From positions 1 to 15,917 of the forward strand of contig DUGD01000013.1 of the NCBI GenBank assembly GCA_013331575.1: DNA of 15,917 nt, written 5' to 3'. This DNA comes from Candidatus Woesearchaeota archaeon. GTDB lineage: Archaea; Nanobdellota; Nanobdellia; Woesearchaeales; UBA525. This document shows, piece after piece, positions 366 to 14,323 of the stretch; position 1 is the stretch's first letter; each line of letters starts with the position of its first letter. The translations under genes were made by a program, and so were the position numbers. Under the pieces are notes generated by a model. It searched no databases and had not been told where the DNA came from. It saw nothing but the letters and a program-made list of their open reading frames with translations.

Positions 366-434
366 GAGTTCTTTCGTTCAACACATCGCTGGAGGTGTAT
401 TCGTATATCGGGGCTGCCTTGGAGCATGTTCTGA

Positions 435-472
435 GGGGCGAGTGTGAATCAAAGATTCACCTCGCGAGCCCC
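435..472. repeat. Strong hairpin between convergent genes
   Basis: GGGG-CGAG-T-GTGAATC, loop AAA, GATTCAC-CTCG-(CGAG)-CCCC: 15 base pairs with one unpaired T on the left arm and a four-base bulge on the right arm. It sits in the 199-bp spacer between the ends of two convergent genes. A smaller hairpin, CGCGA/TCGCG, follows near 483-497. No T-run follows, so it is not a typical archaeal U-tract terminator. It may protect 3' ends or act as a bidirectional stop, which is inference. Confidence 0.6.
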
Positions 473-564
473 GAAACAATGCCGCGAACCGGTCGCGATG
501 CGTCCTCCGCAGCCCTCAGATGGAATAATTTATTGCGCTTAACGATAACTTTCTACGGAGAGAC

Positions 565-2792: not shown

Positions 2793-2807
2793 TTTTTTTA
2801 TTTTTTT
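2793..2807 (+). terminator. T-tract terminator after the 330-aa/microprotein operon
   Basis: Two runs of seven T separated by one A, 9 nt after the microprotein stop. U-tracts of this kind end transcription in archaea. Confidence 0.6.
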
Positions 2808-2810
2808 ACT

Positions 2811-2984
2811 TGAGTGATACCTCGTGCTTTAGCTCGAGGATGAACGCCTTGGAGTAAGTTCAGAAATCGTGCCGATTCATGCAGGCACGATTTCGTAAAA
2901 TCACGGAACGGAGTGAGTTAGATGCTCCGCGACTCTCGAGCTTTGCGAGGAGATACCCCGGCCTTTAGCCCAGGGTCATTCATT
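2811..2984 (+). repeat. Structured repeat element, copy 1
   Basis: This 174-nt unit is repeated at 14158-14323. The first 30 nt are identical between copies, as is a 33-nt block (2922-2954); the last 30 nt match at 24 positions. It holds (a) a left hairpin, CCTCG-T-GC, loop TTTA, GC-T-CGAGG; (b) a central 11-bp perfect hairpin (2863-2873 with 2884-2894); (c) a CTCG/CGAG hairpin near 2935-2949; and (d) a right hairpin with a CTTTAG apex (2956-2975). The two ends can pair (TGAGTGAT with GTCATTCA). Imperfect TTTA-loop hairpins near both ends resemble the ends of IS200/IS605-type elements, so this may be a non-autonomous mobile element. A structured RNA gene is the alternative. No transposase or TnpB gene is in the window. 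Confidence 0.85.
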
Positions 2985-3058
2985 TTTTTAACTGCTTCAC
3001 AACCCTATTACGTATCTACCTATTTTTCGATGATATTCATGCGACTGTGTTATTTCGC

Positions 3059-4015
3059 TTAACTGCCGTTCGCCGCCCGCTCTAGGCGGTCCATCACCGC
3101 AAGGCCTTTGCCGCGCTTAGGCACGGCGAGCGCGAGGATGCAATCCCCCTTTCTCTTGGTACGCAATGCTGCGAACAGATTGTGCGCCGCATCATCGACC
3201 GTCGATCCTAGATCGATGACGTCATATCCCTTGAATGCACTCTTGTGCTCCGAGAGGCACAAGATGATCGGCTGCGAGCATCGTTTCGCATAACGAACGA
3301 GCGAGGCAGCGTCATCGAAGATGTGTAGTGGCCTTTCGGGCGCGTAATGGCGGTACTTCATCCCGGGACTCGCAGGTCTCTTCGATGAAGAGGAAGCTTT
3401 CTTTATGCCGGGCAGTTCTCTGCGCAGTTCCTCGAGCGTTATCGCGCCGAGCCGAAGCACTGTCGGATTCCTGCCGCGCACATCGACAACCGTCGATTCG
3501 ACGCCGTGCAGTGTATGTCCGCCGTCAAGGATGGTGATGTCGGGGAAATCATCACGTACATGCGCCGCAGTCGTCGGGCTCGGACTGCCCGAGCGGTTCG
3601 CGCTCGGCGCGGCGATAGGGCATCCCGATTCCTTGATGAGCGCGAGCGCCATGGGGTGATCGGGGATACGCACCGCGACCGTCGGCAACCCCGCAGTTAC
3701 AATCATGGGGAGCAACGGCGAACGTTCGAAGAGGATGGTGAGCGGTCCGGGCCAGAATCTCGCCATCAACGCCCTTGCCGCAGGAGGTACTGACGCCGTG
3801 ATATCATCGAGCATGTCGATATCGGCGATATGCACGATGAGAGGATTGTCGGCGGGGCGCCCCTTGGCGGAGAATATCTTGCCCACGGCCGACGAATTGA
3901 GGGCGTTGGCGCCAAGGCCATAGATGGTCTCTGTCGGGAAAGCGACGATACCGCCATCCCGGATGATGCGTGCTGCACGCGCGATATCATCCTTAGTCGC
4001 TCCCCTTCGCGTCAT
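3059..4015 (-). CDS. sua5: Threonylcarbamoyl-AMP synthase Sua5
   Basis: Sua5 makes threonylcarbamoyl-AMP from threonine, bicarbonate and ATP. This is the first step of t6A37 formation on tRNAs reading ANN codons, completed by the Kae1/KEOPS complex. The product is 318 aa, the length of the two-domain Sua5 form rather than the shorter YrdC form. The YrdC domain (about 10-200) has GGIVAFPTETIYGLGANA near its start, the SAKGRPADNPL substrate-binding motif, the PSANRSGSPSPT segment and GVESTVVD. A linker with SPGMKYRHYAPE leads to the C-terminal Sua5 domain (about 230-318). The start codon overlaps the stop of the upstream membrane-protein gene by 4 nt, indicating a two-gene operon with coupled translation. 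The identity is clear. Confidence 0.96.
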   Translation of the reverse strand: MTRRGATKDDIARAARIIRDGGIVAFPTETIYGLGANALNSSAVGKIFSAKGRPADNPLIVHIADIDMLDDITASVPPAARALMARFWPGPLTILFERSPLLPMIVTAGLPTVAVRIPDHPMALALIKESGCPIAAPSANRSGSPSPTTAAHVRDDFPDITILDGGHTLHGVESTVVDVRGRNPTVLRLGAITLEELRRELPGIKKASSSSKRPASPGMKYRHYAPERPLHIFDDAASLVRYAKRCSQPIILCLSEHKSAFKGYDVIDLGSTVDDAAHNLFAALRTKRKGDCILALAVPKRGKGLAVMDRLERAANGS

Positions 4016-4902
4016 CGACGTCGTACCGATCTTCGGGCCGTTCCCTTCGCGCTTTGTACAACCTTAACCGGCGGCGTGACGGGAGTGCTAGTGGCGTCCT
4101 GTGCCAGCGAAGGTTCGATTTTTCGTTCCGCGGACGGCGCTTGAGTGTTGCCCTGCACATAATGCCGTACGCCGGATCTGTCGCTGAAGAATTTGAGCGT
4201 CTTGTTCAGCTTCAGCAGTTCCACGAGGCGGATGAGCCTGACTAATTTGGCGACGCGCAGGACTTGGTAGAATGGTATCGTCGCGATGATGTCGAGCCAT
4301 GATGTGCGCAAGAAACGCATGAACGAACCGGCACGGCGGTAGAGGACGATGAGATCGATGAAGAAGATGCTCGTTATGGCGATATCGAAGAAGAAGATAT
4401 AGCTATCCAGCTCTCGCATCGCGAAGAAGAGGTCGAGGAGCACGATGATGAAACTCGCGCTGACTGCGAGGAAGACGACGAAGTGCCATGCCTTCTCCGC
4501 GTCGGTATACGCTATCTGCTCGACTCTATCGACGACGTCCACCTCTTCCGCGACATCCGATTGGCTCCCGTACTCAGCTATTGCCCTCAGCGTTGTAGCA
4601 GCGAGCATCGAACCCACGAAGAGCGCTGACATCTTGAGGAATATCATGATGCTTTCGACGATCGGCGTCCCGCCGAGGAGCACCTGCGCGCACACTGCGA
4701 GCACGAGATACCCTGAGGCCGCGACGATGAAGTTGTACTGGTCGCCTTCGACGTTGAGTATCGCGGAGAAGACGCCGAGGAAGACCACTGCCGCCATGAT
4801 GCCGCCGAGCGCGAATCCGTCGAGCGGGAAGACTCCTGCGAACACCGCGAGGAGCGCGCCGGTGACAAAGAAATACGATCCAGTACGTTTGTAGATGTCC
4901 AT
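4012..4902 (-). CDS. Pore-less voltage-sensor-domain membrane protein
   Basis: The product is 296 aa from the ATG at 4902. A GTG at 4917 could add 5 residues, but GGTGA about 11 nt before the ATG and a TATA box at 4943-4952 favour 4902. Residues 8-105 hold about four hydrophobic helices that I do not recognise. Residues ~139-232 look like a voltage sensor. S1 is about 139-162. S2 is about 167-189, with Asp173 and Asp183. S3 contains SWLDIIATIPF. S4 has R216, K219, R222, R225, K231 and K234 at three-residue spacing, with Glu228 in the series. No S5, pore loop or S6 follows, only a ~60-residue polar tail rich in Pro, Ser and Arg. It may be a proton-channel-like or regulatory voltage sensor, but transport is not shown. 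It overlaps sua5 by 4 nt, so it is co-transcribed. Confidence 0.8.
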   Translation of the reverse strand: MDIYKRTGSYFFVTGALLAVFAGVFPLDGFALGGIMAAVVFLGVFSAILNVEGDQYNFIVAASGYLVLAVCAQVLLGGTPIVESIMIFLKMSALFVGSMLAATTLRAIAEYGSQSDVAEEVDVVDRVEQIAYTDAEKAWHFVVFLAVSASFIIVLLDLFFAMRELDSYIFFFDIAITSIFFIDLIVLYRRAGSFMRFLRTSWLDIIATIPFYQVLRVAKLVRLIRLVELLKLNKTLKFFSDRSGVRHYVQGNTQAPSAERKIEPSLAQDATSTPVTPPVKVVQSAKGTARRSVRRR

Positions 4903-4942
4903 GCAGTCCACACTCACCTATCGCGTCACCCCAGCAAGGGCG

Positions 4943-4952
4943 CTTTATATAG
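4943..4952. promoter_or_regulatory. TATA box usable in both directions
   Basis: CTTTATATAG. On the minus strand, TATAAAG would start transcription near 4922, giving a ~20-nt leader to the voltage-sensor gene. On the plus strand, TTTATATA would start it near 4975, just before the 12-bp closing stem of the structured region at 4988. Confidence 0.5.
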
Positions 4953-4987
4953 ATTACGAGGAGATGTAACTTTGCAGTTAAAGTTCG

Positions 4988-5163
4988 GCGGTCGCCAGCC
5001 TGAAGCGACGAGACACGCGAAAACCTATCGTCCGGGTGCTAAAGCGTCGCATCGAGTCGCGGACCGGCGACGTAGTCACTATCGTTCCTACGCCGGGATT
5101 TCTGAATCCTCGGTGCGGCGAGCGAATGCGAAGCCGCTATTGCCGACGGTCGCTGGCGACCGC
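4988..5163 (+). ncRNA. Candidate structured RNA, unknown family
   Basis: A perfect 12-bp long-range stem, GCGGTCGCCAGC (4988-4999) with GCTGGCGACCGC (5152-5163), closes a ~150-nt interior. Inside are GCGACG/CGTCGC (5004-5009 with 5045-5050), GTCGC/GCGAC, CCGG..CGTAG with CTACG.CCGG (about 5063-5096), GGATT-TCTG-AATCC (about 5097-5110) and GCGGC/GCCGC (about 5115-5136). The second and third hairpin arms partly compete. A small AACTTT/AAAGTT hairpin precedes it and a plus-strand TATA box lies ~35 nt upstream. The open frames here have no protein-like features. I looked for conserved SRP RNA, RNase P RNA and 5S rRNA segments and found none. Strand is assumed from the TATA box and the downstream gene; the structure itself is symmetric. 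Confidence 0.6.
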
Positions 5164-5169
5164 AAACAA

Positions 5170-5265
5170 ATCTTCGCGTAGCGCGCTGTGCAAGCATGAC
5201 GGTACATGCCGGAACGGAGTGAAATGGGTTTCTCGCGGCGTCCGCGAAAGGATGCTTGAGAAGAT
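5170..5265 (+). other. Second structured intergenic domain before the dus gene
   Basis: ATCTTC (5170-5175) pairs with GAAGAT (5260-5265), and CAAGCAT (5191-5197) with ATGCTTG (5252-5258), both perfect. Inside are a CGCG-TAG-CGCG hairpin (5175-5185) and TCGCGG-CGT-CCGCGA (5233-5247). The segment also holds GGAACGGAGTGA (5211-5222), a 12-mer found in two other spacers. It may be a separate RNA or the 3' domain of the structure that ends at 5163. It stops ~20 nt before the TATA-like TTTATC (5286-5291) of the dus gene, so it is less likely to be a leader of that gene. Confidence 0.5.
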
Positions 5266-5315
5266 GTCATGGTAAGAGAAGCAGATTTATCAAAGAGAAA
5301 ACATTCTCACGTGCC

Positions 5316-6284
5316 ATGACGCATAGATTCCCGAAGCTCGCGAGCCCTGCGATACTATCGCCCATGGCGGGCGTGACGGATGTTGCGTACCGGGCGCTGT
5401 GCAAACGCTACGGCGCGGGCCTCACCATCACCGAGTTCCTCTCTGCCGCGGCCATCGTGCGCGATAACGAGCGGACGCGCCGCATGCTGATCACCGATCC
5501 TATCGAGACTCCTGTCGGCGTGCAGCTCTTCGGCCAATCACAGGATGAGGTCGTACGCGCGGCGGAATTCGTGCAGGACAAATTCGACGTCATCGATATC
5601 AACTGCGGTTGTCCTGCATGGAAAGTCGTCCGTGTCGGCGCGGGCAGCGCGATGCTCGAGGAGCCGAAGAAGATTCATTCGTTCGTGGCTGCGCTTGCTG
5701 ACGCAGTTAAGGTACCGGTGACGGTCAAAATCCGCGCCGGCATCGATGACAAGTGCATCAACGCGGTAGAGGTTGCGCGTCTCGTCGAGGAGGCGGGTGC
5801 CGCGGCGGTCGCGATTCACGGCCGCACCCAATCGCAAGGGTACCGTGGCAAGGCCGACTGGAAGCTCATCGCGCGCGTCAAGGAAGCGGTCTCCATACCT
5901 GTCATCGGCAATGGCGATGTGTTCACGCCCGAGGACTTCGCCGCGCGAAAAGATGAGAGCGGTGTCGATTATATCATGGTGGCGCGCGGCGCCATCGGCA
6001 AGCCGTTCCTTTTCACGCAGATCAACGACAAGCTCAAGCGCGGGAGCTACAGGGTATTGACGAACGTGGAGCAGCTCGATCTCTTCGATGAGTATTACGC
6101 GCTCGCGCGCAAATACGACCTCTCGCTCTCCGCCGTCAAGATCCACGCGCAGTCATTCACGACAGGTCAGACTGGCGCGGGCAAGTTCCGAGCGAAGCTC
6201 GTCGGCATAAAGTCGTTCACGGAGCTCGAGACAGCGATGGGCGAGTACCGTGCTGTCGTCGAAAAGGGCGAACTGGTGCGGTGA
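5316..6284 (+). CDS. dus: tRNA-dihydrouridine synthase (Dus family)
   Basis: Dus enzymes reduce specific uridines of tRNA to dihydrouridine, using FMN and NADPH. The product is 322 aa from the ATG at 5316, a usual family length. The N-terminal TIM barrel begins with [26 protein letters not shown] carries the catalytic Cys99, followed by a VGAGSAML segment. [23 protein letters not shown] and [12 protein letters not shown] are the FMN- and substrate-binding motifs, and [13 protein letters not shown] matches the conserved end of the barrel. The last ~80 residues form the helical tRNA-binding domain. The reading frame is open further upstream to 5256, but that part lies in the structured spacer. 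TTTATC at 5286-5291 would give a nearly leaderless transcript. The exact uridine modified cannot be told from sequence. Confidence 0.95.
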
Positions 6285-6332
6285 ATTGATATCTGTCGAT
6301 ACGCCGCGCATACCTTGAGTGACGACGCATCA

Positions 6333-6341
6333 TTTTTATAT
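6333..6341 (+). promoter_or_regulatory. TATA box for the signal peptidase gene
   Basis: TTTTTATAT lies 22-30 nt before the ATG at 6363, so the message would be leaderless or nearly so. It lies inside a longer open frame from 6315, which argues against the upstream TTG start. Confidence 0.6.
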
Positions 6342-6362
6342 GCGACGTCCTGCGATGTTTCT

Positions 6363-7037
6363 ATGCACAATCTGTTGCTACGGCAGTCTACACGGAATGC
6401 TCTTATTGCGTTGGGCGGTGCTCTCGCATTGCTTTTCTGCGTAGCATTCTTGCTCGGACGTGCTAGCGACGCCCCGAACGCTGTCTGTATCGAGCAAAAA
6501 GAGGATTTACGCCTGCAACGAGAGGTTATCCTCGAGCTGGAGAATGAGAATATCCAGCTCCGGATAGCGAACCTGGCGCTCAGGAACAAAACCTTGACGC
6601 TCACGGAGAACATCTCGAGATTGAGTTCCTCGCTCGCGCACTATGAGTTGCGTTTTCCTCAGGTGACTTCTGAAGAGGTGCCCCATCCACAATCTCGTGT
6701 TGATCTGAGAGATGTGTTCGTAGGAGAACGTGAGGTGCTCATCAAAATACCCTTGGCGCAGGAAGGCATCGTAGCGGCGAGCAACTCGATGGACCCGGTG
6801 CTTGAGGAGAACAATATCGTGCTCGAAGTGACTCCGCAGAGCCCTGCAGAACTCTACATCGGCGACATCATTATCTACCAGAGCGGCGATTCCCGTGTCA
6901 TCCACCGGATCGTCGATATAGGATACGATGCTGAAGGGTGGTATGCTATCACGAAAGGCGACAATAATCCCTTGCCCGATCCCGCGAAGGTGAGGTTTGT
7001 GCAGGTGTTGGGTGTGGTCATAGGAATTATATACTAA
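6363..7037 (+). CDS. Signal peptidase I, archaeal/ER type (S26B), with coiled-coil spacer
   Basis: Signal peptidases cut signal peptides from exported proteins at the outer face of the membrane. The product is 224 aa. Residues 12-32 are a membrane anchor. Residues ~45-95 are Leu/Glu-rich and likely a coiled coil. The catalytic domain starts near 115. SNSMDP holds the catalytic Ser142; VIHRIVDIG supplies His181, which replaces the bacterial Lys as in archaeal and eukaryotic enzymes; TKGDNNPLPDP gives the conserved acidic residues Asp200 and Asp206; the protein ends VLGVVIGIIY. In usual Sec11-like enzymes the anchor lies only a few tens of residues before the Ser, while here ~110 residues separate them. 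A small exported Cys-rich protein follows. It could be the housekeeping enzyme or a dedicated one. Confidence 0.88.
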   Translation: MHNLLLRQSTRNALIALGGALALLFCVAFLLGRASDAPNAVCIEQKEDLRLQREVILELENENIQLRIANLALRNKTLTLTENISRLSSSLAHYELRFPQVTSEEVPHPQSRVDLRDVFVGEREVLIKIPLAQEGIVAASNSMDPVLEENNIVLEVTPQSPAELYIGDIIIYQSGDSRVIHRIVDIGYDAEGWYAITKGDNNPLPDPAKVRFVQVLGVVIGIIY

Positions 7038-7038
7038 A

Positions 7039-7047
7039 TTATATATT
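7039..7047 (+). promoter_or_regulatory. TATA box for the Cys-rich small protein gene
   Basis: TTATATATT follows directly on the signal peptidase stop and lies 64-72 nt before the ATG at 7111. This allows separate transcription with a leader of ~35-40 nt. Confidence 0.45.
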
Positions 7048-7110
7048 GGCATGCAGTATACATTAATGTTATACCCGCTGTGATGACGCGGCGCACAACG
7101 CAGTGAGAAC

Positions 7111-7362
7111 ATGGATACGACGCACATCAACAGATACACTTTGGCGTTCATAATCATCGTGGGAGGACTTCTCTACGCGGTACTCATGATCCCTGATGCC
7201 GAGTCTGATGACACGGTTGTGGCTGTCGCCGGCGACGCGACTATCTGTTGCGTGTTTAACTGGCACAACACGGAGAAAACGTGCGCCGCTGTAGATGGTC
7301 AGACTTGCGATGTGTGCCGGACTATCTGCGATGCGAAGGAGAATGCTCCTGACAATCCCTAG
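7111..7362 (+). CDS. Small exported or membrane-anchored Cys-rich protein, 83 aa
   Basis: I do not recognise this family. Residues 9-27 are a hydrophobic stretch (LAFIIIVGGLLYAVLMI) preceded by a short polar start with one Arg. It could be a signal peptide or an N-terminal anchor. The following ~55 residues hold six cysteines: a CC pair (46-47 region), one about 13 residues later, then a CxxC, and a last Cys four residues on. This suits either disulfides outside the cell or a small metal site. The gene lies 73 nt after the signal peptidase gene and has its own TATA-like box. The position suggests, but does not prove, that it is a substrate of that peptidase. The start ATG is the only good one; no strong ribosome-binding site is visible. 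Confidence 0.6.
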   Translation: MDTTHINRYTLAFIIIVGGLLYAVLMIPDAESDDTVVAVAGDATICCVFNWHNTEKTCAAVDGQTCDVCRTICDAKENAPDNP

Positions 7363-7387
7363 TGCGCAATCTTCCGTCCCTGCGTAT

Positions 7388-7681
7388 TCACGTCTTCTGT
7401 ATCGTTAGTTCGCGCAATCGCTCTTCGATTGTTCGGAGATATGTCTCTTTGTCGACGGTGCTATCCAGCGCATTCGCGAGTGTTGTATCCCTCACCGATT
7501 CGCGCACCCAAATCGCGAAATCATTCTTGTGATGGTCTTCGTTCACATGGTACTTGAAACTGTACTCGTTGCATCCCGAGAGATAATTCGCAAGTTCGAA
7601 AATATTCCTTATGACAACGCCATTGCACGTCCAGAACGCCTGAGCGGGCTCCACGTCCCCGAGTACAATCTGATCATTCAT
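7388..7681 (-). CDS. Small conserved-looking protein, possibly DUF5752-like
   Basis: The product is 97 aa from the ATG at 7681. A GTG at 7723 would add 14 residues, but the added part is unlike the rest and overlaps a TTAT-containing promoter-like stretch. The core reads FWTCNGVVIRNIFELANYL, then FKYHVNEDHHKNDFAIWV, then a helix ending RTIEERLREL. The pattern of an aromatic start, an N..EL helix, a F.YHV strand and ND(F)..WV recalls small archaeal domains annotated as DUF5752; I recall this from memory and could not check it. No function can be given. The gene shares orientation with the LOG-family gene 74 nt upstream and may be co-transcribed with it. It converges on the Cys-rich protein gene ending at 7362. 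Confidence 0.65.
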   Translation of the reverse strand: MNDQIVLGDVEPAQAFWTCNGVVIRNIFELANYLSGCNEYSFKYHVNEDHHKNDFAIWVRESVRDTTLANALDSTVDKETYLRTIEERLRELTIQKT

Positions 7682-7754
7682 GCAGCCCGTTACACCACCA
7701 CATTGAATAAGGTTTTTGACCACGAATGAGTGGTCTCGCCCCTCGCTTCACAGA

Positions 7755-8411
7755 TTATCCTTTCGTGTTCTTCTCGATGATCTTCACTATCTCTTCGACG
7801 TCGTCCACGAAGTAGAACATATCGAGATCCTTGGCGCCGTGCGTGAGGAGCTTTTGCTTGACCATCTCTTTCTTCGCCCATGCGAAAAGCCCTTTCCAAT
7901 AGCTCTTGTTCACCAGTATGAGCGGTACTTTATCGTCCATACCTGTCTGGATGAGCACGACGTACTCGAAAAGCTCGTTGAGCGTGCCGAAACCGCCCGG
8001 GTAGAAGATGAGTGCTTCGCTTTTCACCGCGAGGATGAACCTGCGCACGAAGAGGAATGAGTAGGAGCGTGTGTGCGTGTAGATACTACCATCCACCCTC
8101 TCTCCTTTGATCATCGATGCACGGATGCCGATGGAAGGCATGCCTGCCTTGTACGTGCCGGCGTTCGCCGCGTACATGATGCCAGGGCCTCCACCTGTGA
8201 CCATCGCGTACCCTTTCTTGCCAAGAGCGTACCCTGTCTTCTCCGCGTGCGTGTAGTATTTGCTGCCGGACGGCACCATGTGCGAGCCGAAGACCGAGAC
8301 TATCGGCTTGTCGATGCTGTCGAGCAGTTTGAGGCCATCATCGATCTCTTTTTTGGCCTCAGCGCTGGTCCATTGACGGTGCTTGAAATACTGCTTGTTT
8401 TTGCGGAGCAT
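7755..8411 (-). CDS. LOG-family protein (nucleotide phosphoribohydrolase-like)
   Basis: The LOG family (Rossmann fold, often misnamed lysine decarboxylase) includes enzymes that release the base from nucleoside 5'-monophosphates. The product is 218 aa from the ATG at 8411. It shows VSVFGSHMVPSGSKYY at the first strand, MVTGGGPGIMYAANAGTYKAG for phosphate binding, and the hallmark PGGFGTLNELFEYVVLIQTG carrying the catalytic-site Glu. The usual paired residues RSYSFLFVRRFILAVKSEALIFY lie in between. A TTG at 8429 could add six residues, but TATTAAAA at 8434-8441 lies 23-30 nt before the ATG, so a leaderless message from 8411 fits better. The substrate is not predictable; in prokaryotes these enzymes often act in nucleotide salvage. 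It diverges from a small membrane protein gene. Confidence 0.9.
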   Translation of the reverse strand: MLRKNKQYFKHRQWTSAEAKKEIDDGLKLLDSIDKPIVSVFGSHMVPSGSKYYTHAEKTGYALGKKGYAMVTGGGPGIMYAANAGTYKAGMPSIGIRASMIKGERVDGSIYTHTRSYSFLFVRRFILAVKSEALIFYPGGFGTLNELFEYVVLIQTGMDDKVPLILVNKSYWKGLFAWAKKEMVKQKLLTHGAKDLDMFYFVDDVEEIVKIIEKNTKG

Positions 8412-8433
8412 AAGTATTATCCAGTTCAAGGCG

Positions 8434-8475
8434 TTTTAATACCTTGTGGTTTGCCGCGGACAGATAATTTTATAT
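8434..8475. promoter_or_regulatory. Divergent pair of TATA boxes
   Basis: The minus-strand TATTAAAA (8434-8441) serves the LOG gene (ATG 8411). The plus-strand TTTTATAT (8468-8475) serves the small membrane protein gene (ATG 8499). Each lies 22-31 nt before its ATG, so both messages appear leaderless. Confidence 0.6.
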
Positions 8476-8498
8476 CGGATGATGATTCAAACTTCTGC

Positions 8499-8741
8499 AT
8501 GGTTGACATCACGTTCAATATTGGATTGCTCGGGATGGCACTCATCCTTATCGCGTTCGTGCTCAACGTGATAAAGCACGTCAAAGCGACGGACAGGTTG
8601 TACTTATGGCTCAACTGCGTCGGAAGCGCGCTCCTCATCATATACGCGGTATTGCTCTCATCCATTCCGTTCATGATCTTGAACATCGTCTGGACTGGGG
8701 CAGCCGTTTGGGGGATACTCTATCATGGCAAAAAAAGGTAG
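8499..8741 (+). CDS. Small three-helix membrane protein, CBU_0592-like
   Basis: The product is 80 aa. Three hydrophobic helices are visible: about 6-26 (FNIGLLGMALILIAFVLNV), about 36-55 (LYLWLNCVGSALLIIYAVLL) and about 58-76 (IPFMILNIVWTGAAVWGILY). The layout, with a helix, a short charged loop, LWLNCVG and a final ILNIVW.GAAVWG, fits the small membrane proteins annotated as CBU_0592 family. Their function is unknown to me. The ATG at 8499 follows a TATA box by 24-31 nt; a longer frame reaching back to 8073 is antisense to the LOG gene and is not real. Its last 17 nt overlap the next gene, so translation is probably coupled. Confidence 0.75.
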   Translation: MVDITFNIGLLGMALILIAFVLNVIKHVKATDRLYLWLNCVGSALLIIYAVLLSSIPFMILNIVWTGAAVWGILYHGKKR

Positions 8742-8979
8742 GTCTTGCGAATCGTGCGGTATGATGATGCTCGATCGCGCAGATTTCGCGCTGCAGAGCA
8801 TCAATAGTCGGTATTGCAGGTACTGCGTCGACAAGGACGGAATGCTCCAGACGCCTCAGGAGCGCAAAGAGCGACTCACGAAATTCCTGATGGAAGACGA
8901 GCGCCTGAGCGAGGATGTTGCGGAGAAGAAAGCGGTGGAGCAGATGCGGAAGATGCCCGCTTGGAAAGGGAAGATATAG
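8725..8979 (+). CDS. Zinc-ribbon domain protein, 84 aa
   Basis: Residues 8-11 (CESC) and 31-34 (CRYC) form two CxxC knuckles separated by ~20 residues, within a CESCGM...RYCRYCVDKDGML pattern. This matches the small putative zinc-ribbon domain (Pfam Zn_ribbon_2 type) often found in short archaeal and bacterial proteins. The C-terminal 45 residues are helical and charged (QERKERLTKFLMEDERLSE onward), ending MPAWKGKI. In this family the helical part often follows the ribbon. The gene begins inside the end of the membrane protein gene (17-nt overlap), so the two form an operon. Its partner and role are unknown. Confidence 0.8.
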   Translation: MAKKGRSCESCGMMMLDRADFALQSINSRYCRYCVDKDGMLQTPQERKERLTKFLMEDERLSEDVAEKKAVEQMRKMPAWKGKI

Positions 8980-8998
8980 AGATTCTGACATAATTATC

Positions 8999-9160
8999 GG
9001 ACGCCGCCTTGGCGGGGCTTTGAGGTTGGTGGGCGCAAAAACTCAATCGGTAATGTGCGCGCTAACCTTGTGGGCACTCTCGCCGCGGCGAAGCAACCAG
9101 ACAACAAGACGCAGTAGTTGACTACAGAAGTCGAACACTCCAGCCGCAGCACGAGGAGTT
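8999..9160. other. Spacer rich in inverted repeats, possible RNA
   Basis: This 240-nt spacer holds no credible gene. It contains AGGTT (9023-9027) with AACCT (9064-9068), nested around GCGCA (9033-9037) with TGCGC (9056-9060). TCGCCGCGGCGA is a perfect palindrome (9080-9091). A GTT.GACT/AGTC.AAC hairpin lies at 9117-9136 and an ACTCC/GGAGT hairpin at 9137-9159. The structure is less compact than those at 4988 and 9952. An A/T stretch at 8990-8998 could be a promoter. Confidence 0.35.
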
Positions 9161-9191
9161 CTTGACAGTGAAGTTGAGGTAACGATACCTA

Positions 9192-9197
9192 TTTATT
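9192..9197 (+). promoter_or_regulatory. TATA-like box for the 114-aa protein gene
   Basis: TTTATT lies 23-28 nt before the ATG at 9220, which suits a leaderless transcript. Confidence 0.45.
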
Positions 9198-9219
9198 CCG
9201 CGAGGGAGTCCCGAGTTGC

Positions 9220-9564
9220 ATGGTAACGCTCAACGCATCACTCAAGAACAACGCCCTTCCTCTCATTGAACGCGTCCGCATACTCGCTGACACGAGCAAG
9301 CAAATGGCGGACGATGGGCGGGCGATGAACATCGCAGGCTATGTCGATGCGGTAGACGCGCTCATCTCGTACCCGACACACTACGCGCCAGGTCTTTGCA
9401 ACAAGCGCGTCTCTTTCGATGAGGCGTTCGAAGCGAAGACATTGCAGAACCTCCGGGACGAGCTCCGATCGGGCGTGGCCAACGGCGACCAATTCTACAC
9501 CGAGATGGCTCATCCCGGCTTTGTACAGGTACTCGAGCGCTATTTCGTCGGCATAACCCGTTAA
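9220..9564 (+). CDS. Unrecognised 114-aa protein
   Basis: I do not recognise this protein. It is soluble and mostly helical by composition, with one Cys (in GLCNKRVSFDEAFEAKTL) and no membrane segment or signal peptide. The ATG at 9220 is supported by a TATA-like box 23-28 nt upstream. Codon choice (GC-rich third positions) matches the neighbours, which supports a real gene over chance. Antisense frames over the same bases run long but begin without promoters. It stands alone, with structured spacers on both sides and a tRNA gene about 200 nt downstream. Confidence 0.65.
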   Translation: MVTLNASLKNNALPLIERVRILADTSKQMADDGRAMNIAGYVDAVDALISYPTHYAPGLCNKRVSFDEAFEAKTLQNLRDELRSGVANGDQFYTEMAHPGFVQVLERYFVGITR

Positions 9565-9598
9565 TTCTTCGGTGTTGAACGTCTCGCTTCGCTCGCGG

Positions 9599-9683
9599 CC
9601 AGCGATGCGCCTCTTGGCGCATCCTGGCGTTCGACTCAACGTCCACGCTCCCGTTCGCTCCGTTTTCCTGGAGGTCGAACGCC
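9599..9683. repeat. Paired inverted repeats downstream of the 114-aa gene
   Basis: The first hairpin is CCAG-C-GATGCGCC, loop TCTT, GGCGCATC-CTGG (9599-9627). The second is GGCGTTCGAC (9626-9635) with GTCGAACGCC (9674-9683), a perfect 10-bp stem over a 38-nt interior. The arms share two bases. It may be a 3' structure of the upstream message or an independent element; no gene lies in 9565-9767. Confidence 0.5.
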
Positions 9684-9726
9684 TATTGGCTGGCCGGGCC
9701 GTTCAGCACCTTGCCGGGGCAGAATC

Positions 9727-9734
9727 TTTTTATA
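9727..9734 (+). promoter_or_regulatory. TATA box of the tRNA gene
   Basis: TTTTTATA lies 34-41 nt before the first base of the mature tRNA, as expected for an archaeal tRNA promoter with a short 5' leader for RNase P. Confidence 0.65.
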
Positions 9735-9767
9735 CCACGGGCGAGCACGCATCTGTAATCATCCTGG

Positions 9768-9877
9768 GAGCCCATAGCTTAGCCTGGTGGAGCGCCGGTC
9801 TTATATGACACCAGTCCGTTCGCGGATTGGAGCTCGAAGAGAGCCGGTGGTCGCGAGTTCAAATCTCGCTGGGCTCA
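9768..9877 (+). tRNA. tRNA-Ile with anticodon UAU, intron-containing
   Basis: A full cloverleaf can be drawn. The acceptor stem is GAGCCCA (9768-9774) with TGGGCTC (9870-9876), discriminator A9877. The D stem is GCTT/GAGC with a GG-containing loop. The anticodon stem is CCGGT (9795-9799) with GCCGG (9843-9847). The variable loop is five bases. The T stem is GCGAG/CTCGC around TTCAAAT. With the intron removed after position 37, the loop is CTTATAA, so the anticodon is TAT (9802-9804), followed by A37. Such a tRNA would read the Ile codon AUA directly. Most archaea read AUA with a CAU tRNA modified to agmatidine by TiaS. A37 next to U36 is also a site for t6A, made with Sua5, encoded ~6 kb away. 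CCA is not encoded. TATA box and T-run terminator flank it. Confidence 0.88.
9806..9841 (+). other. tRNA intron at position 37/38
   Basis: A 36-nt intron interrupts the anticodon loop. It carries an 8-bp hairpin, CCAGTCCG-TTCG-CGGATTGG (9811-9830). Near the splice sites CTT pairs with AAG and GA with TC, giving an approximate bulge-helix-bulge for the archaeal splicing endonuclease. One pair of the central helix (A9803 with G9836) is a mismatch, so the boundaries may be off by a base; the anticodon is the same in the likely alternatives. Confidence 0.7.
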
Positions 9878-9879
9878 TA

Positions 9880-9885
9880 TTTTTT
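9880..9885 (+). terminator. T-run terminator of the tRNA gene
   Basis: Six T beginning three bases after the discriminator base. Confidence 0.6.
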
Positions 9886-9951
9886 CTCATAATACCGCTC
9901 TAGATCGTGCCCATGTCCCGCCGGTTCTTAGGTTGATTGTTACTTTTTGTT

Positions 9952-10089
9952 TGTTGTGGCGGCGCATAGCATGACGGTGGTCCGTGGGCGACTGTCGTCG
10001 GCTGCGGCCAAATGACGACAGTCTGGATTGCGCCAAGGTTTGACTACGCAGTAGGCGAACCTAGGAACGAAGTGACTAAGGCCACAACA
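9952..10089 (+). ncRNA. Candidate structured RNA, cloverleaf-like, unknown family
   Basis: A perfect 9-bp closing stem, TGTTGTGGC (9952-9960) with GCCACAACA (10081-10089), is followed without a gap by GGCGC (9961-9965) with GCGCC (10030-10034). Inside the latter is a perfect 10-bp hairpin stem, GACTGTCGTC (9990-9999) with GACGACAGTC (10014-10023). Next comes a hairpin of GGTTTG-A-CTAC, loop GCA, GTAG-G-CGAACC (10037-10061), then a small stem whose loop holds GGAACGAAGTGA (10064-10075). The structure fills most of the 300-bp spacer between the tRNA and the foldase gene, where I see no protein gene. There is no clear TATA box of its own, so it may be transcribed with the tRNA or on the other strand. 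Strand is a guess. Confidence 0.55.
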
Positions 10090-10128
10090 TTGTTCTCTGT
10101 TTCCTAAGACTCTGCCCCTCCACAATAC

Positions 10129-10137
10129 TTATATATT
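10129..10137 (+). promoter_or_regulatory. TATA box for the foldase lipoprotein gene
   Basis: TTATATATT is placed for a start of transcription near 10160. The leader would carry GGGGTG at 10167-10172, 6 nt before the ATG at 10179. Confidence 0.6.
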
Positions 10138-10178
10138 GCATGCCATTCGATGCACCATTGCACTGGGGGGTGTATTAG

Positions 10179-11372
10179 ATGCGTCGGATACTGTTCGGAC
10201 TCGTTTTCATAGTCCTTTTTGTCATAGCCTGTTCTCCGCGGGAAGACACTATCAAGGAATCCCCCGCAGTCCGTCTGTTCACCGCCATCAACGGCGAAGT
10301 CGATTACACCGAGAAGGTGTTCTCCGGATCGGACGCAGTAGCATTCGCCGATCTCGTCAAGACCGAATGCCCCCAAGGCGTAGGCGATGAATTCGTAAGA
10401 GTCACGCTCGATGCGAGTTCCGCAACGCTAGTGCTCTACACATCGAAGGACGGCAAGACTGTGACGTGCAGCGTGCTTAAACCAAAAGAGCAGAGACGAG
10501 TCGTGGTCAAGACGCAAGATGAAGCTCCAAACGAAGATACTGCGTTCATGGTGAATGGCGGCGCCATCACAATCACGCAACTTCAGGCTGCTATCGATGC
10601 GCTACCGCAGAATGTCCCGCGCGACACTAACGCGATAGCGCTCGCCGCCAACCAACTCATCAATGACGAGCTCTTGCGCCAGGAAGCGGCGAAGATAGAG
10701 GTGGGCGCGGATGAGATCGCCGCGGCACGAGCGTCGGTGCTCTTGCAGGCGAATCTCACCGAGGAGACGCTTCCCGCCAGGCTGTCTGAGCGCGGTGTCT
10801 CAACTGAGGATTTCGAATCGCAGATACTCGCGCAGGCGAAACTCCAGGCGCTCCTCGATGCCCGGCTCTTGCTCCGCGAGATCAGCGTGACGGATGCTGA
10901 TGCGCAATCGTACTACATGGCGAATCCGACAGAATTCTTGCGATCAGAGCAAGCGGTGATGCGTCACATTTTCGTGAGCAACAACCGTTCGCAGGATCAG
11001 TTCGCCACAATCGCTCAGACCGTGCTTGCGCAGCTCAATGGCACGGATTTCTGCGAGCTTGTCGCTCGTTATAGCGATGATGCGCAGAGCAAGGACAATT
11101 GCGGCGTCTATGTTATCTCCCGCGGCGTCATCGATCCGAATCTGGAGCTTGCGAGCTTCAGCACTCCTGTGAACCAGACATCGGTCGTGAACACCGCTAG
11201 CGGCGTGCACTTCGTGCAATCGCTGCAAGTCGTCCCGGCACAGGTGGTCCCCTACACGCAGGTATCTGGACAATTGCAGAGCAGTCTGCGCAACACGTTG
11301 ATGCAGCAACGGTTGAGCTTGTACCTCGCTACGTTGCGTGCTAACGCAGATATCACGAGTTACCTCGGTTGA
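10179..11372 (+). CDS. SurA/PrsA-like lipoprotein foldase with parvulin PPIase domain
   Basis: The product is 397 aa. The N-terminus is a lipoprotein signal: basic start, hydrophobic core, and VIAC with Cys18 as the lipidation site. Residues ~25-110 form a domain I do not recognise, with one Cys pair candidate (ECP and TCS). A SurA-type N-terminal chaperone region follows (about 125-250), opening FMVNGGAITITQLQAAI and including NQLINDELLRQEAAK. The parvulin (PPIC) rotamase domain covers about 260-355: VMRHIFV opens it, then FCELVARYSDDAQSKDNCG, and it ends SGVHFVQSLQV. Such proteins help secreted proteins fold outside the membrane by proline isomerisation. The parvulin domain has two Cys (FCELV and DNCG) that could form a disulfide. 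A TATA box and GGGGTG ribosome-binding site support the start. Confidence 0.9.
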   Translation: MRRILFGLVFIVLFVIACSPREDTIKESPAVRLFTAINGEVDYTEKVFSGSDAVAFADLVKTECPQGVGDEFVRVTLDASSATLVLYTSKDGKTVTCSVLKPKEQRRVVVKTQDEAPNEDTAFMVNGGAITITQLQAAIDALPQNVPRDTNAIALAANQLINDELLRQEAAKIEVGADEIAAARASVLLQANLTEETLPARLSERGVSTEDFESQILAQAKLQALLDARLLLREISVTDADAQSYYMANPTEFLRSEQAVMRHIFVSNNRSQDQFATIAQTVLAQLNGTDFCELVARYSDDAQSKDNCGVYVISRGVIDPNLELASFSTPVNQTSVVNTASGVHFVQSLQVVPAQVVPYTQVSGQLQSSLRNTLMQQRLSLYLATLRANADITSYLG

Positions 11373-11380
11373 TAGAATAT

Positions 11381-11401
11381 CCTCTTTTCTTATACATTTT
11401 T
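11381..11401 (+). terminator. Pyrimidine-rich terminator after the foldase gene
   Basis: CCTCTTTTCTTATACATTTT begins 9 nt after the stop. T-rich tracts like this end transcription in archaea. The rest of the spacer to 11539 shows nothing I can name. Confidence 0.5.
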
Positions 11402-11539
11402 ATCGTCTCTCATCTTCCGTCTTGCTCCATCCTTTTCTAATCTATTGTCACCTAACGCGTTATTAACAAATGTTCTCTTCCGAAGCGTAGAAAGTTACGA
11501 GGGAAGTGTCTGGCAGGTTAGTAGATAGATGTGGCAGAC

Positions 11540-12712
11540 CTATTGTATCTCGTCCATTTCGACGATGAATGCATCGCTTGTGGGCCATTCGGTGATGATG
11601 GCGCACGTCGCTTCGGGGAAGCGTTGCTTGAGCGGTCTAGCTATCCCGTTCAGTGCTTCGGCGCCGAGCACGAGTCGCAGACGGTGCATATCCACAAGAC
11701 CTGCATCCGCCGGCATCCCTTGCTCGCGCAACCACATGAGGATTTCGCGCAGTCGTATTTCTTCGGCAAGGCGCTCCTCTGAAGCGATGGCTTTGAGCGT
11801 CTTCTTGTAGGAGAATTTTGGCGGGTAGCTCAGGTAGACCGCGCCGCGTGTGAGCAGTCCCTCGCTGTCTACGATGTCAAAAGGCTGCTTTTCGTTCTCG
11901 GCGCGGCGGATGACCCGGTTGCCCATCTGTACTCGATCCTTGAGTTTGGTCGTGCAGAAATGAACCGGTAGCTTATGTCGTTGCGCGTGGAGCATGAGTT
12001 TTCGCGCTGCCTCGCGGCTACCTTTGATCGCGTAGCTATCGCGCCGGACTATCTCGTAGCCTTTCTTATGGAACGTGTCGATGGTGAGCTCGGAGATCTC
12101 GAGCTCGTTGAGGTTGAGGAAGGTGATTATCTTCTCTGCAACTGCGTAGTCGATGAGGCGTTTCGTCTCATCCACCTTGTCCGGCAGCACCGGGATCTCC
12201 ATCCCGATCGTCCAGGGGTACGCGAGTGCGAGCTTCATGCGCGGCCAGAACTTCTCGCTCAAGAGTGATGGGTGGAACCGTATCTCATCAAGACCTGCCT
12301 CGTGAAGGCGCCGCATCGTGGTCTCGTTGACGAGGATGAGTGGCGTGTAGAGGTGGATGTGGAATCCCTTGCCGAACTCCTTCTTGAGCGCTTTGATGAA
12401 CTCGCAGGTGCGGTCTAGACGCGCGAGTGGATCGCCCCCAGTCACACCCGCTCCCGTCGCCCTGCTCGCTTTTGCCTCTTCTATCATCTGGGCTATCTGC
12501 TCTTCAGTGGTGCCGGAGAGTTCGCGTTCGTTCGCGCACGCGACATCTTTCATCTTCTTCTCCGGTGAGAGTGGGCAGAAGAAACAGCTTGCAGGGCAGA
12601 GACCGGTCATGAAGAGCACGAGCTTCTCGCCCTTGACGCAAGACTTGCAGCCCGGAGCGAGATCGCCCTGACATAGGCTGTAGTACGGCGTCTGCAGTAT
12701 CTTAAGCGGCAT
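11540..12712 (-). CDS. Radical SAM protein related to pyruvate-formate-lyase activases (COG2108-like)
   Basis: The product is 390 aa. The radical SAM motif C39-x3-C43-x2-C46 (CPASCFFC) binds the [4Fe-4S] cluster that splits S-adenosylmethionine. GAGVTGGDPLARLDRT is the SAM-binding GGE-type loop, here GGDP. Before it lie C14, C22 and C25 (C-x7-C-x2-C), which could bind another metal. The central barrel continues through FHIHLYTPLILVN, LDEIRFHPSLL and MEIPVLPDK. The last ~150 residues include a Cys in PVHFCTTKLKDRVQMGNRVIRR, a pattern I associate with the archaeal COG2108 group. The substrate is unknown. The ATG at 12712 has TTTAAAAA on the minus strand 22-29 nt upstream, so the message is probably leaderless. 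It converges on the foldase gene. Confidence 0.88.
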   Translation of the reverse strand: MPLKILQTPYYSLCQGDLAPGCKSCVKGEKLVLFMTGLCPASCFFCPLSPEKKMKDVACANERELSGTTEEQIAQMIEEAKASRATGAGVTGGDPLARLDRTCEFIKALKKEFGKGFHIHLYTPLILVNETTMRRLHEAGLDEIRFHPSLLSEKFWPRMKLALAYPWTIGMEIPVLPDKVDETKRLIDYAVAEKIITFLNLNELEISELTIDTFHKKGYEIVRRDSYAIKGSREAARKLMLHAQRHKLPVHFCTTKLKDRVQMGNRVIRRAENEKQPFDIVDSEGLLTRGAVYLSYPPKFSYKKTLKAIASEERLAEEIRLREILMWLREQGMPADAGLVDMHRLRLVLGAEALNGIARPLKQRFPEATCAIITEWPTSDAFIVEMDEIQ

Positions 12713-12733
12713 AGTCTTAGAACCGACGAGGAG

Positions 12734-12741
12734 TTTTTAAA
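12734..12741 (-). promoter_or_regulatory. TATA box for the radical SAM gene
   Basis: TTTAAAAA on the minus strand, 22-29 nt before the ATG at 12712. The remaining spacer to 12862 contains a GGAGT/ACTCC pair but nothing I can interpret. Confidence 0.5.
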
Positions 12742-12862
12742 CATTCTGGGGTGGGGTGCTGCGTTGGTGGAGTCCGGATTACTGTCTTTGTGTTTTTGCC
12801 TTCGCGCGGGCACTCCGATCATCAGGTGGTGGTTGTAGGAACCTTCCGCTTTTGTACCGCAG

Positions 12863-13459
12863 TCATCCGAATATATATTCCATCAAGCTTCCCACCGCTT
12901 CCGCGACGTTGAGGACTGCTGTACGAAGCCAATAGCTATCTTGTCTTGGTACGTATTCGCGATAGTATTCGCCGCGATATTCCTCTAGATTCCCCCCGAG
13001 TTCCTCTGTGGCGGTTGAAGCCAATATTTCGAGAGTGGCTCCTCTTGTCGCTTCGGTAATCCTTGTTATATGTGTCGCTGTCGGCATACGGTACTGTGGT
13101 GGCGTTGTTTGTCGCGAGGTGCTCATTACTGGGCTAAGATATTGACTCGCTGTCTTCTGCCATGTCTGTTCTATATGATTCTGCATTATTGGTCCGATTG
13201 TGGGAATCTGTCTGAATTGATCGTAGAACTCAAAACCGGAATCTACCATGTCATGCATAGCGTCATAAGCATCATTGATAGAGCTTGCGTACTGTGCATA
13301 CCACGTCCTATCGCGAGTTTCTCTTTCTAACAAGCGCATCTCTTCGAACGCATGTTCTATTCGTTGGTATTCGGGCCGAAACAGTACTTGTGTGTACCAT
13401 GGTGCGGCATCAAACCACCTTTCAGTCTCGTTTCTTGCCTGTATTATCAGTTCTAGCAT
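12863..13459 (-). CDS. Unrecognised 198-aa protein under divergent operator control
   Basis: I do not recognise this protein. It is rich in aromatic and charged residues and looks soluble and helical, with no signal peptide. The N-terminal half is full of Glu, Arg, Tyr and Trp (NETERWFDAAPWYTQVLF, EHAFEEMRLLERETRDRTW). A short Pro/Thr/Ser-rich linker lies near residues 110-130. The C-terminus ends with a weakly hydrophobic helix, LRTAVLNVAEAVGSLMEYIFG. There are no cysteines. The start at 13459 has GGTGA about 8 nt upstream. The gene diverges from a winged-helix regulator and shares with it a promoter bearing two matching operator sites, so it is probably that regulator's target. Base composition is more A/T-rich than the neighbours, hinting at later acquisition. 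Confidence 0.7.
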   Translation of the reverse strand: MLELIIQARNETERWFDAAPWYTQVLFRPEYQRIEHAFEEMRLLERETRDRTWYAQYASSINDAYDAMHDMVDSGFEFYDQFRQIPTIGPIMQNHIEQTWQKTASQYLSPVMSTSRQTTPPQYRMPTATHITRITEATRGATLEILASTATEELGGNLEEYRGEYYREYVPRQDSYWLRTAVLNVAEAVGSLMEYIFG

Positions 13460-13473
13460 GTTATCACCTAACT

Positions 13474-13540
13474 TTACCTTTAAGGTAATGGTAATGATTA
13501 TATATTTAAATAGTTTACCATCTTTACTTAAAAGGTAAAC
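13474..13540. promoter_or_regulatory. Symmetric divergent promoter with two operator sites
   Basis: TTACCTTTAAGGTAA (13474-13488) is a perfect palindrome with a single central base. TTACTTAAAAGGTAA (13524-13538) matches it at 12 of 15 positions. Their centres are 50 bp apart, with the palindromic A/T box TATTTAAATA (13503-13512) midway. Each site therefore overlaps the expected transcription start of one gene (about 13475 on the minus strand, about 13530 on the plus strand). GTTTACC (13513-13519) and GGTAAAC (13534-13540) add another inverted pair. This is the layout of a repressor that shuts off both promoters, most likely the winged-helix protein encoded at 13541. Confidence 0.7.
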
Positions 13541-14128
13541 ATGGTCGGTACGTTCGATAAAATCAATGCGACGCTGAATGAGCTAGTGCTCCAGGTCTTC
13601 TCTGGCGTCGATTATGTGAGTAAAATCTCTCTTGAAACAAGCAAATCGATTCCTGTTGTGCATCGCCAGCTCGAAGAATTGGTGAAGGCGAACATCCTTA
13701 CCCGGACGCGGCAAGGGAAGCGCGTGACTTACGGCGTGAACTGGTCGTGCATAGCCGATGTCATCAACAGTATTGTCCTGCTCGACATCTCTGATGTTCC
13801 CGGTGCAAAGCAGCTCTCAAAAGACCAAATGGTACTGGCAACAAAAGAATTTCTCGCTCACCCGCACACGCAGGAACTCATGCGCGCCTTTTTCTCATCG
13901 CAAAAGGCGAAGACTGGCGCAACGGGCAGAGCATTCAAGGAATCGATGCGTCAATTCCTGGATGTGTTTGGTATGCTCTCGCAGGAAGAGCGCGACCGCT
14001 TCGCGAAAAAAATTAACGCTTCAGCAGAGGTACGTGCTTTTCTTGAGCATTGCGCGAATCAGTACGTGCAACGGCAACGACGCGATCCGCGTTTTGTGCT
14101 TGTTGAGAGAATTAAGAACGAGCTCTAG
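13541..14128 (+). CDS. Winged-helix transcriptional regulator (ArsR-like)
   Basis: The product is 195 aa. Residues ~15-70 form a winged helix: a first helix in NELVLQVFSGVDYVSKIS, a recognition helix in SKSIPVVHRQLEELVKANIL, and a wing in TRTRQGKRVTYGVN. This is the ArsR/MarR-like pattern of archaeal regulators. The remaining ~120 residues are helical (KEFLAHPHTQELMRAFFSSQ, KESMRQFLDVFGMLSQEE) and could bind a ligand or mediate dimer contacts; I do not recognise this part. Single cysteines in the wing-following segment and in LEHCANQ do not form an obvious metal site. The gene starts directly at the edge of an operator-like repeat, so autoregulation is likely. It diverges from the 198-aa gene, its probable target. 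Repeat copy 2 begins 29 nt after its stop. Confidence 0.82.
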   Translation: MVGTFDKINATLNELVLQVFSGVDYVSKISLETSKSIPVVHRQLEELVKANILTRTRQGKRVTYGVNWSCIADVINSIVLLDISDVPGAKQLSKDQMVLATKEFLAHPHTQELMRAFFSSQKAKTGATGRAFKESMRQFLDVFGMLSQEERDRFAKKINASAEVRAFLEHCANQYVQRQRRDPRFVLVERIKNEL

Positions 14129-14157
14129 TTCACGAAGATCAATGTCTTGTCATTAAA

Positions 14158-14323
14158 TGAGTGATACCTCGTGCTTTAGCTCGAGGAGAGTCGCCTTGGA
14201 GTCTGTCAGGCGCGAGAGGTGCCGGAGGCCTCGCGCGCCGTAACCTCTGCGTGAGCATAAATGCTCCGCGACTCTCGAGCTTTGCGAGGAGATGCCCTGG
14301 GCTTTAGTCCGGGGTTATTCATT
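14158..14323 (+). repeat. Structured repeat element, copy 2
   Basis: This is the second copy of the unit at 2811-2984, in the same orientation and again just downstream of a plus-strand gene. The left 30 nt and the 33-nt block at 14261-14293 are identical to copy 1. GCCTTGGAGT (14193-14202) is also shared, at the same distance from the left block. The central hairpin, GGCGCGAGAGG (14209-14219) with CCTCGCGCGCC (14229-14239), pairs at 10 of 11 positions but has no sequence relation to the copy 1 hairpin. In the right hairpin, five of the six differences from copy 1 fall at three paired positions. They turn two mismatches (C/C and C/A) into G-T wobbles and an A-T pair into G-T. GAGAGTCGC near the left also pairs with GCGACTCTC (14268-14276). 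Confidence 0.85.

Follow-up and report, generated by a model that had tools for sequence, protein, structure and literature searches.

The nearest published parallel to the elements analyzed here is the combination of PATEs and SMR-A repeats in Haloquadratum walsbyi, with which we compared them by description. PATEs are related to IS605-type elements, lack a transposase, have near-terminal palindromes and produce no target duplication; SMR-A repeats, ∼110 bp long with inverted ends, no target duplication and up to 54 copies, lie inside the palindromes of PATEs and IS605 elements, their mobilization being given as unknown (PMC3119063). We analyzed a stretch of 15 917 nucleotides (nt) of Candidatus Woesearchaeota archaeon DNA, hereafter called the window, which is contig C21 of its genome (G000; an assembly of 1.63 Mb in 99 contigs, 74.6% complete) and which contains two elements of ∼170 nt, copies 1 and 2, with no transposase inside. 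We estimate at roughly two in three the probability that each copy is a PATE-like IS200/IS605 derivative carrying a second, independent intergenic repeat, the core, with stems kept paired mainly at the DNA level.

REP and BIME sequences are extragenic palindromes that have been proposed to be moved by IS200/IS605-type (RAYT) transposases, and their palindromy is kept by complementary changes (PMC2817692). The units studied here are likewise extragenic palindromes in which complementary changes retain palindromy, but whereas REPs measure 20–40 bp (PMC3733652) and have a GT(A/G)G head (PMC2817692), these units are three-way junctions of 75–105 nt that lack such a head, and G000 yielded no Y1 gene. 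Repetitive elements and double hairpin elements of fungal and sponge mitochondria are hairpin pairs located in intergenic DNA and in some genes, and their number differs between close Allomyces species (PMC2800124).

Two copies of one element in the window

When the sequence was re-read, the 30-nt left block, the 33-nt right block and GCCTTGGAGT proved identical between copies 1 and 2, as an earlier sequence-only reading of the window had stated. At corresponding positions, copy 1 has the hairpin GAAATCGTGCC/GGCACGATTTC (2863–2873/2884–2894, 11 of 11 pairs) and copy 2 the hairpin GGCGCGAGAGG/CCTCGCGCGCC (14209–14219/14229–14239, 10 of 11 pairs), again in agreement with that reading, which was also correct in noting that five of the six differences in the right hairpin fall at three paired positions, all three of which can still pair in copy 2. 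It had overlooked that the basal stem of copy 1 hardly pairs (ATGAAC on the left, GACTC on the right), and it had missed a third core, whose basal stem is GGGGCT/AGCCCT (410–415/511–516). In window coordinates, which are used throughout for this contig, the features are as follows:

2802–2984, plus strand: copy 1, whole PATE-like element with its left flank TTTTTTA (consensus TTYATTA)
2820–2839, plus strand: left-end hairpin of copy 1, CCTCGTGCTTTAGCTCGAGG, on the same plan as the left end of the Y1 element of genome G051
2846–2930, plus strand: core of copy 1, type A (GCCTTGGAG...CTCCGC), identical to the core of copy L002
2863–2894, plus strand: central arm of copy 1 (P3), with loop GATTCATGCA, 11 of 11 pairs
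2901–2916, plus strand: second inner hairpin of copy 1 (P4)
2955–2984, plus strand: right-end hairpin of copy 1 (CTTTAG loop) and terminal TTCATT
14149–14323, plus strand: copy 2, whole PATE-like element with its left flank GTCATTA
14167–14186, plus strand: left-end hairpin of copy 2
14193–14269, plus strand: core of copy 2, type B
14209–14239, plus strand: central arm of copy 2, 10 of 11 pairs
14294–14323, plus strand: right-end hairpin of copy 2 (CTTTAG loop) and terminal TTCATT
416–510, plus strand: third core, type D, with no IS200-type ends seen

IS200/IS605-type ends and the transposase of relatives

The ends follow a plan that is common to many copies in G000: the loop of the left hairpin reads CTTTAG or CTTCAG, that of the right hairpin reads CTTTAG, and TTCATT follows the right hairpin; the stem of the right hairpin varies between copies on both sides (CCGCGG, CCCCGCC, CCCCGGG). 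A left end followed by a core was found at 33 places in the examined stretches of G000, 27 of which also had a right end according to a loose pattern, and four of the 33 left ends (L045, L069, L091 and L104) have 3–5 mismatches and a weak context. Upstream of 31 left ends, the sequence agrees with a loose TTYATTA consensus, its last two positions being T in 30 and A in 23 of the 31 cases and its fourth position A in just 14.

A profile search for Y1_Tnp yielded matches in three of 17 genomes (G051, G006 and G008). The G051 gene (110.7 bits, no internal stop) lies between TTCATTAC...GATACC-hairpin and GATACC-hairpin-TTCATT, and both of its ends have CTTTAG-loop hairpins arranged as in the window copies (the left end was read by eye). 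Partial Y1 matches in G006 and G008, the latter with one stop, directly precede the same kind of right end. These same-plan ends around or beside the Y1 genes of relatives support one of the two models in the sequence-only reading, that of a non-autonomous IS200/IS605-like element. Because neither Y1_Tnp in the profile search nor the TnpB zinc-ribbon family PF07282 gave a match (0 in each case) in the 75%-complete G000, the window copies look transposase-less, and their assignment as probable PATE-like, transposase-less IS200/IS605 derivatives is supported by the plan of their ends. A carrier of a TnpB omega-RNA would call for a TnpB gene in the genome, and PF07282 had 0 matches in this assembly of 74.6% completeness.

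One locus, L039:585–630, holds a terminal-only element in which the left hairpin is fused to the right end with nothing in between, and terminal-only fused PATEs are likewise described from Haloquadratum (PMC3119063). Assembly gaps (NN) interrupt the elements L003, L032, L044, L045 and L048, and a contig end interrupts L018; the true copy number may be higher.

Copies and distribution of the core

A BLAST search of copy 1 against its own genome gave 65 matches at E up to 10, of which several are fragments belonging to a single copy; E is at least 0.26 for the last ten, and eight of these ten are the central hairpin matching its own reverse strand. The pattern GCCTTGGRN{60,90}CYCCGC matched G000 79 times, compared with 0 matches for a reversed-pattern control, and at least two of the 79 (C68:15362 and C76:34093) look unlike the family. 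Several arm types have common core ends. The sequence-only reading was to be abandoned if no further copies had a paired hairpin at this place, and further copies do have paired central arms.

The pattern was present in 69 of 287 genomes of the order (own genome included), many of which had one or two matches, no more than the control. A clear excess was found in G000 (79), in G006 of the same family (42; control 4), and in G038 (22), G169 (20), G003 (17; control 2) and G008 (15; control 2). With a covariance model built from 51 cores, for which at most 14 candidates were scored per genome, matches were obtained in nine of 279 genomes sampled from the phylum (own genome included), all nine belonging to the same order. 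Viral contigs gave 0 exact matches to the type-A core pattern. In G038 (L148–L158) and G169 (L137, L138 and L146), several cores appear by eye to lie within a further outer inverted repeat common to the copies of the genome, a different wrapper from the IS200-type ends.

PATE-like ends are already known, and the core matches no known Rfam family: an Rfam search of the window at gathering scores returned a tRNA only, and three loci with cores gave no match even when E values up to 1 were accepted. In searches confined to open-access papers, we did not meet the core family or nested twin hairpins (described below) in archaea. In size, inverted ends and copy number the core fits SMR-A, and duplication is ambiguous in one absence case; SMR-A strongly prefers the palindromes of PATEs and IS605 elements (PMC3119063), whereas ∼54 of the 79 pattern matches in G000 have no detectable IS200-type left end and ∼25 have one, a tally that degenerate ends (e.g. 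L013) escape. Because this preference is not found here, we do not claim membership in SMR-A. Covarying stems, arm types and nested twin hairpins, all present here, are absent from the Haloquadratum passages on PATEs and SMR-A (PMC3119063).

The Rfam-matched tRNA gene at 9768–9877 of the window was missed by ARAGORN, and its length of 110 nt suggests an intron.

Fold and covariation of the core

We aligned 51 of the 55 type-A cores, four near-duplicates having been dropped. The named structure is a three-way junction consisting of a basal stem (P1) of up to 10 pairs, GC, a CTT bulge, the pairing GGAG/CTCC, the arm P3 with its loop GATTCATGCA, and the arm P4. On this structure, 86.9% of 1479 cells were paired, compared with 61.7% in shuffled alignments. 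Two-sided changes occurred in 24 of 29 pairs, with 393 two-sided cells (shuffled, 130) against 24 one-sided cells, and the covariation was 0.644, compared with 0.166 for shuffled and at most 0.130 for slid versions. Observed values exceeded all 500 shuffles on four of five measures; the measure of further pair types did not lie beyond them (50 of 500 shuffles reach the observed value). P4 is weak (69.6% paired), and RNAalifold omitted both P4 and the GGAG/CTCC pairing, giving a local TGG/CCA pairing instead.

The explanation that the window shows a chance resemblance of two palindromes with shared flanks is refuted by the 79 matches against 0 in the control and by the four measures that surpass every shuffle, and we assign it practically no probability.

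Probable exchange of arms and movement of cores

From just inside the loop of its left hairpin through CTCCGCG, copy 1 is identical to L002. On either side of that stretch it matches the type of L005 and L007, in GAGTGATACC to the left and over the following 26 nt to the right; its right-end stem is an exact match to neither L002 nor that type. Copy 1 thus reads as a mosaic of other copies, which the sequence-only reading had missed. This mosaicism would account for the basal stem of copy 1 that hardly pairs, and it suggests that the 'swapped' arm came by recombination between copies. Selection on structure, as that reading proposed, therefore accounts for only part of the picture, since the arm of copy 1 seems to have been recombined in.

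G006 and G008, which represent two species, have the same core at the same place (L167 and L058). The first 21 nt agree, and four adjacent P3 pairs have all been changed while all remain paired, a difference that could have arisen by conversion from another copy or by template switching. Template-switch mutations create and correct hairpins, and under this process a single event is predicted to yield perfect stems and compensatory changes of several bases; they have been described for RNA genes (PMC8794818), and we propose them as a possible process for a dispersed repeat.

Other slots differ between genomes. Near orthologous genes whose order is the same, the core of G000 is of one type and that of G002 of another; in G006 and G008, cores lie in opposite orientation beside the same gene. 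The L170 core of G006 lies in an intergenic stretch that is altogether absent at the same gene junction in G008; by match coordinates only, the flanking matches are 6 bp apart in G004 compared with 245 in G006, and the stretch in G007 falls short of it by 237 bp. The simpler reading is that the core inserted in G006. The match coordinates of this case hint at a 27-bp duplicated flank, which the alignment does not make convincing. For another G006 copy compared in four genomes, only one flank matched. Between the examined loci of G038 and G169, which hold part of their copies, no convincing common neighbor genes were found (one match of 28.6%). The core may also have inserted into palindromes that were already there, whose arms would then form its basal stem; a search of the examined loci for an empty palindrome of this kind used a pattern that was too loose, giving 293 matches, the first 20 of which were chance matches or overlaps.

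RNA or DNA

Selection on an RNA fold should retain G-U pairs far better than A-C mismatches. At the first seven basal pairs of 112 of 113 cores (one was skipped because of a short flank), we counted 659 Watson–Crick pairs, 25 G-T, 31 A-C and 69 others. The filter by which cores were collected accepted G-T, not A-C, at the first two pairs and so works against this low G-T result; some of the listed copies are related to one another, two overlap (L034) and a few contain N. That G-T does not exceed A-C in the basal stem leans towards maintenance at the DNA level and is not proof of it. As a control, five tRNAs in the examined loci showed 10 G-T among 106 bracketed pairs, a small sample in which A-C cannot appear.

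We considered the possibility that the core is a structured non-coding RNA or 3′ untranslated region (3′UTR) element of this archaeal order, present in multiple copies and kept by selection on its RNA fold, and that an IS200-type element acquired some of these copies. In its favor are strong covariation and conserved loops in a three-way-junction fold, as well as the composition of P3, where 459 cells in 51 rows comprised 448 Watson–Crick pairs, six G-T, two A-C and three others. In G169, 10 of 13 cores are sense-downstream of a gene, as a 3′UTR element would be, and three have an antisense upstream gene; the core also persists at the locus common to G006 and G008. TATA-like motifs are enriched in the two nearest upstream windows (13/87 and 11/87, compared with 0, 3 and 1 in three windows further out), although coding DNA begins in those further windows and the contrast may only reflect intergenic against coding DNA.

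Set against these points are the basal G-T and A-C counts, the lack of an Rfam match and a patchy distribution (9/279 genomes). In addition, cores without a detectable left end have no overall strand preference (upstream gene sense in 41, antisense in 31; P = 0.29), and the TATA-like motifs show no peak at one distance, so that a promoter belonging to the core was set aside. We accordingly regard this explanation as unlikely. A structured RNA family with a swappable arm, the other model of the sequence-only reading, is upheld as regards a structured family, given the copies, fold and covariation, but not as regards its RNA nature, for which neither a basal G-T excess nor an overall strand bias was found, although G169 and P3 lean the other way. 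That reading had offered its two models as alternatives; each is partly right, and one element carries the other. A 3′UTR element as such was rejected for want of an overall strand bias, G169 excepted, and a bulge-helix-bulge intron and a K-turn were considered as candidates and set aside by eye.

The variable center and conserved ends, together with an asymmetric three-base bulge and nearly wobble-free stems, would also suit a folded single-stranded recombination site used by a site-specific recombinase in the manner of an integron attC, in which the ends would be contact boxes, the CTT bulge would set the strand and variable arms would be tolerated. The boxes of attC sites are RYYYAAC/GTTRRRY. 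Such boxes were not seen by eye, the copies are scattered instead of standing in cassette arrays, and no recombinase was searched for; we consider this explanation very improbable.

Twin-hairpin inserts

Thirteen comparisons of filled with empty copies showed inserts of 48–54 nt, the value of 54 being ∼3 too high as the anchors differ in length. Each insert consists of two short hairpins side by side, and L036 carries inserts within inserts. A loose rule found 45 such twins in 544 kb (overlaps counted twice and other genomes included), 11 of them without GCCTTGG nearby, compared with 0 in 120 shuffled loci; a stricter rule found 41. In 30 of these 41, a word of at least three letters before hairpin 1 recurs inverted between the hairpins and in direct orientation behind hairpin 2, a significant excess (null mean 10.5; the 500 shuffles reached at most 19). 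This arrangement, a-H1-a′-H2-a, is borderline at four letters (6; null mean 1.5, maximum 6) and absent at five, with neighboring pairs in nested arrays counted more than once. By script, a direct duplication of 2–4 nt was found in six of the 13 insert comparisons and none in the other seven. We saw no hairpin pair common to unrelated sites, though no test aimed at this was made. Unlike the mitochondrial double hairpin elements (PMC2800124), the twins insert in other folded repeats and add ∼50 nt, often with a short word that recurs, inverted, between the hairpins.

A purine-rich 5′ arm was tried as an orientation mark of the twins and dropped, since the reverse complement of a hairpin keeps the purine arm. 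At L162:2130–2510 of G104, five twin hairpins lie in ∼370 nt, with no GCCTTGG core nearby, within a larger nested fold.

A broader reading, which we advance tentatively and hold to be doubtful, is that of a DNA-level system of palindromic mobile repeats in which cassettes nest, twin hairpins into cores and cores into IS200-type ends, and in which stems turn over almost freely.

Proposed mechanism and implications

Under our preferred reading, that of a PATE-like derivative carrying an independent core, a Y1 transposase acting in trans would recognize the two CTTTAG-loop hairpins on single-stranded DNA and would insert the element next to TTYATTA-like words. The family has many arm types, which would explain why copies 1 and 2 differ in their central arms, and these types may be exchanged by recombination between copies via the conserved ends. 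The stems would stay paired mainly by DNA-level recopying of one arm from the other (template switching or conversion); alternatively, the folded DNA strand may be the working form. The core itself presumably spreads as a small palindromic mobile repeat by means of some enzyme.

Besides the P3 composition and the G169 orientation given above, several results weigh against this reading. The loop sequences of the core are conserved across genera, which implies a function that the reading does not explain, and its persistence at one shared locus in G006 and G008 indicates that the core is not simply restless. No enzyme that would mobilize the core was found in searches of the Y1 and TnpB families only. 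The searches of G000 turned up no Y1 gene, so recent movement in that genome can only be presumed, and six relatives offered no orthologous gene pair in which an empty site of either window copy could be sought.

With the elements described here, a group of uncultured archaea gains a repeat system built in layers, and since a single genome shows both filled and empty inserts, comparing them can reveal the insertion rule. Strong evidence of a functional RNA is commonly seen in covariation, and here the core family could serve as a test case: hundreds of two-sided changes without a basal wobble excess could help to tell RNA selection from arm correction at the DNA level. If the broader system of nested palindromic mobile repeats were real, pairing would be restored by DNA recopying, the loops would be the sole conserved contacts, and the family would be a natural instance of strong covariation without RNA.

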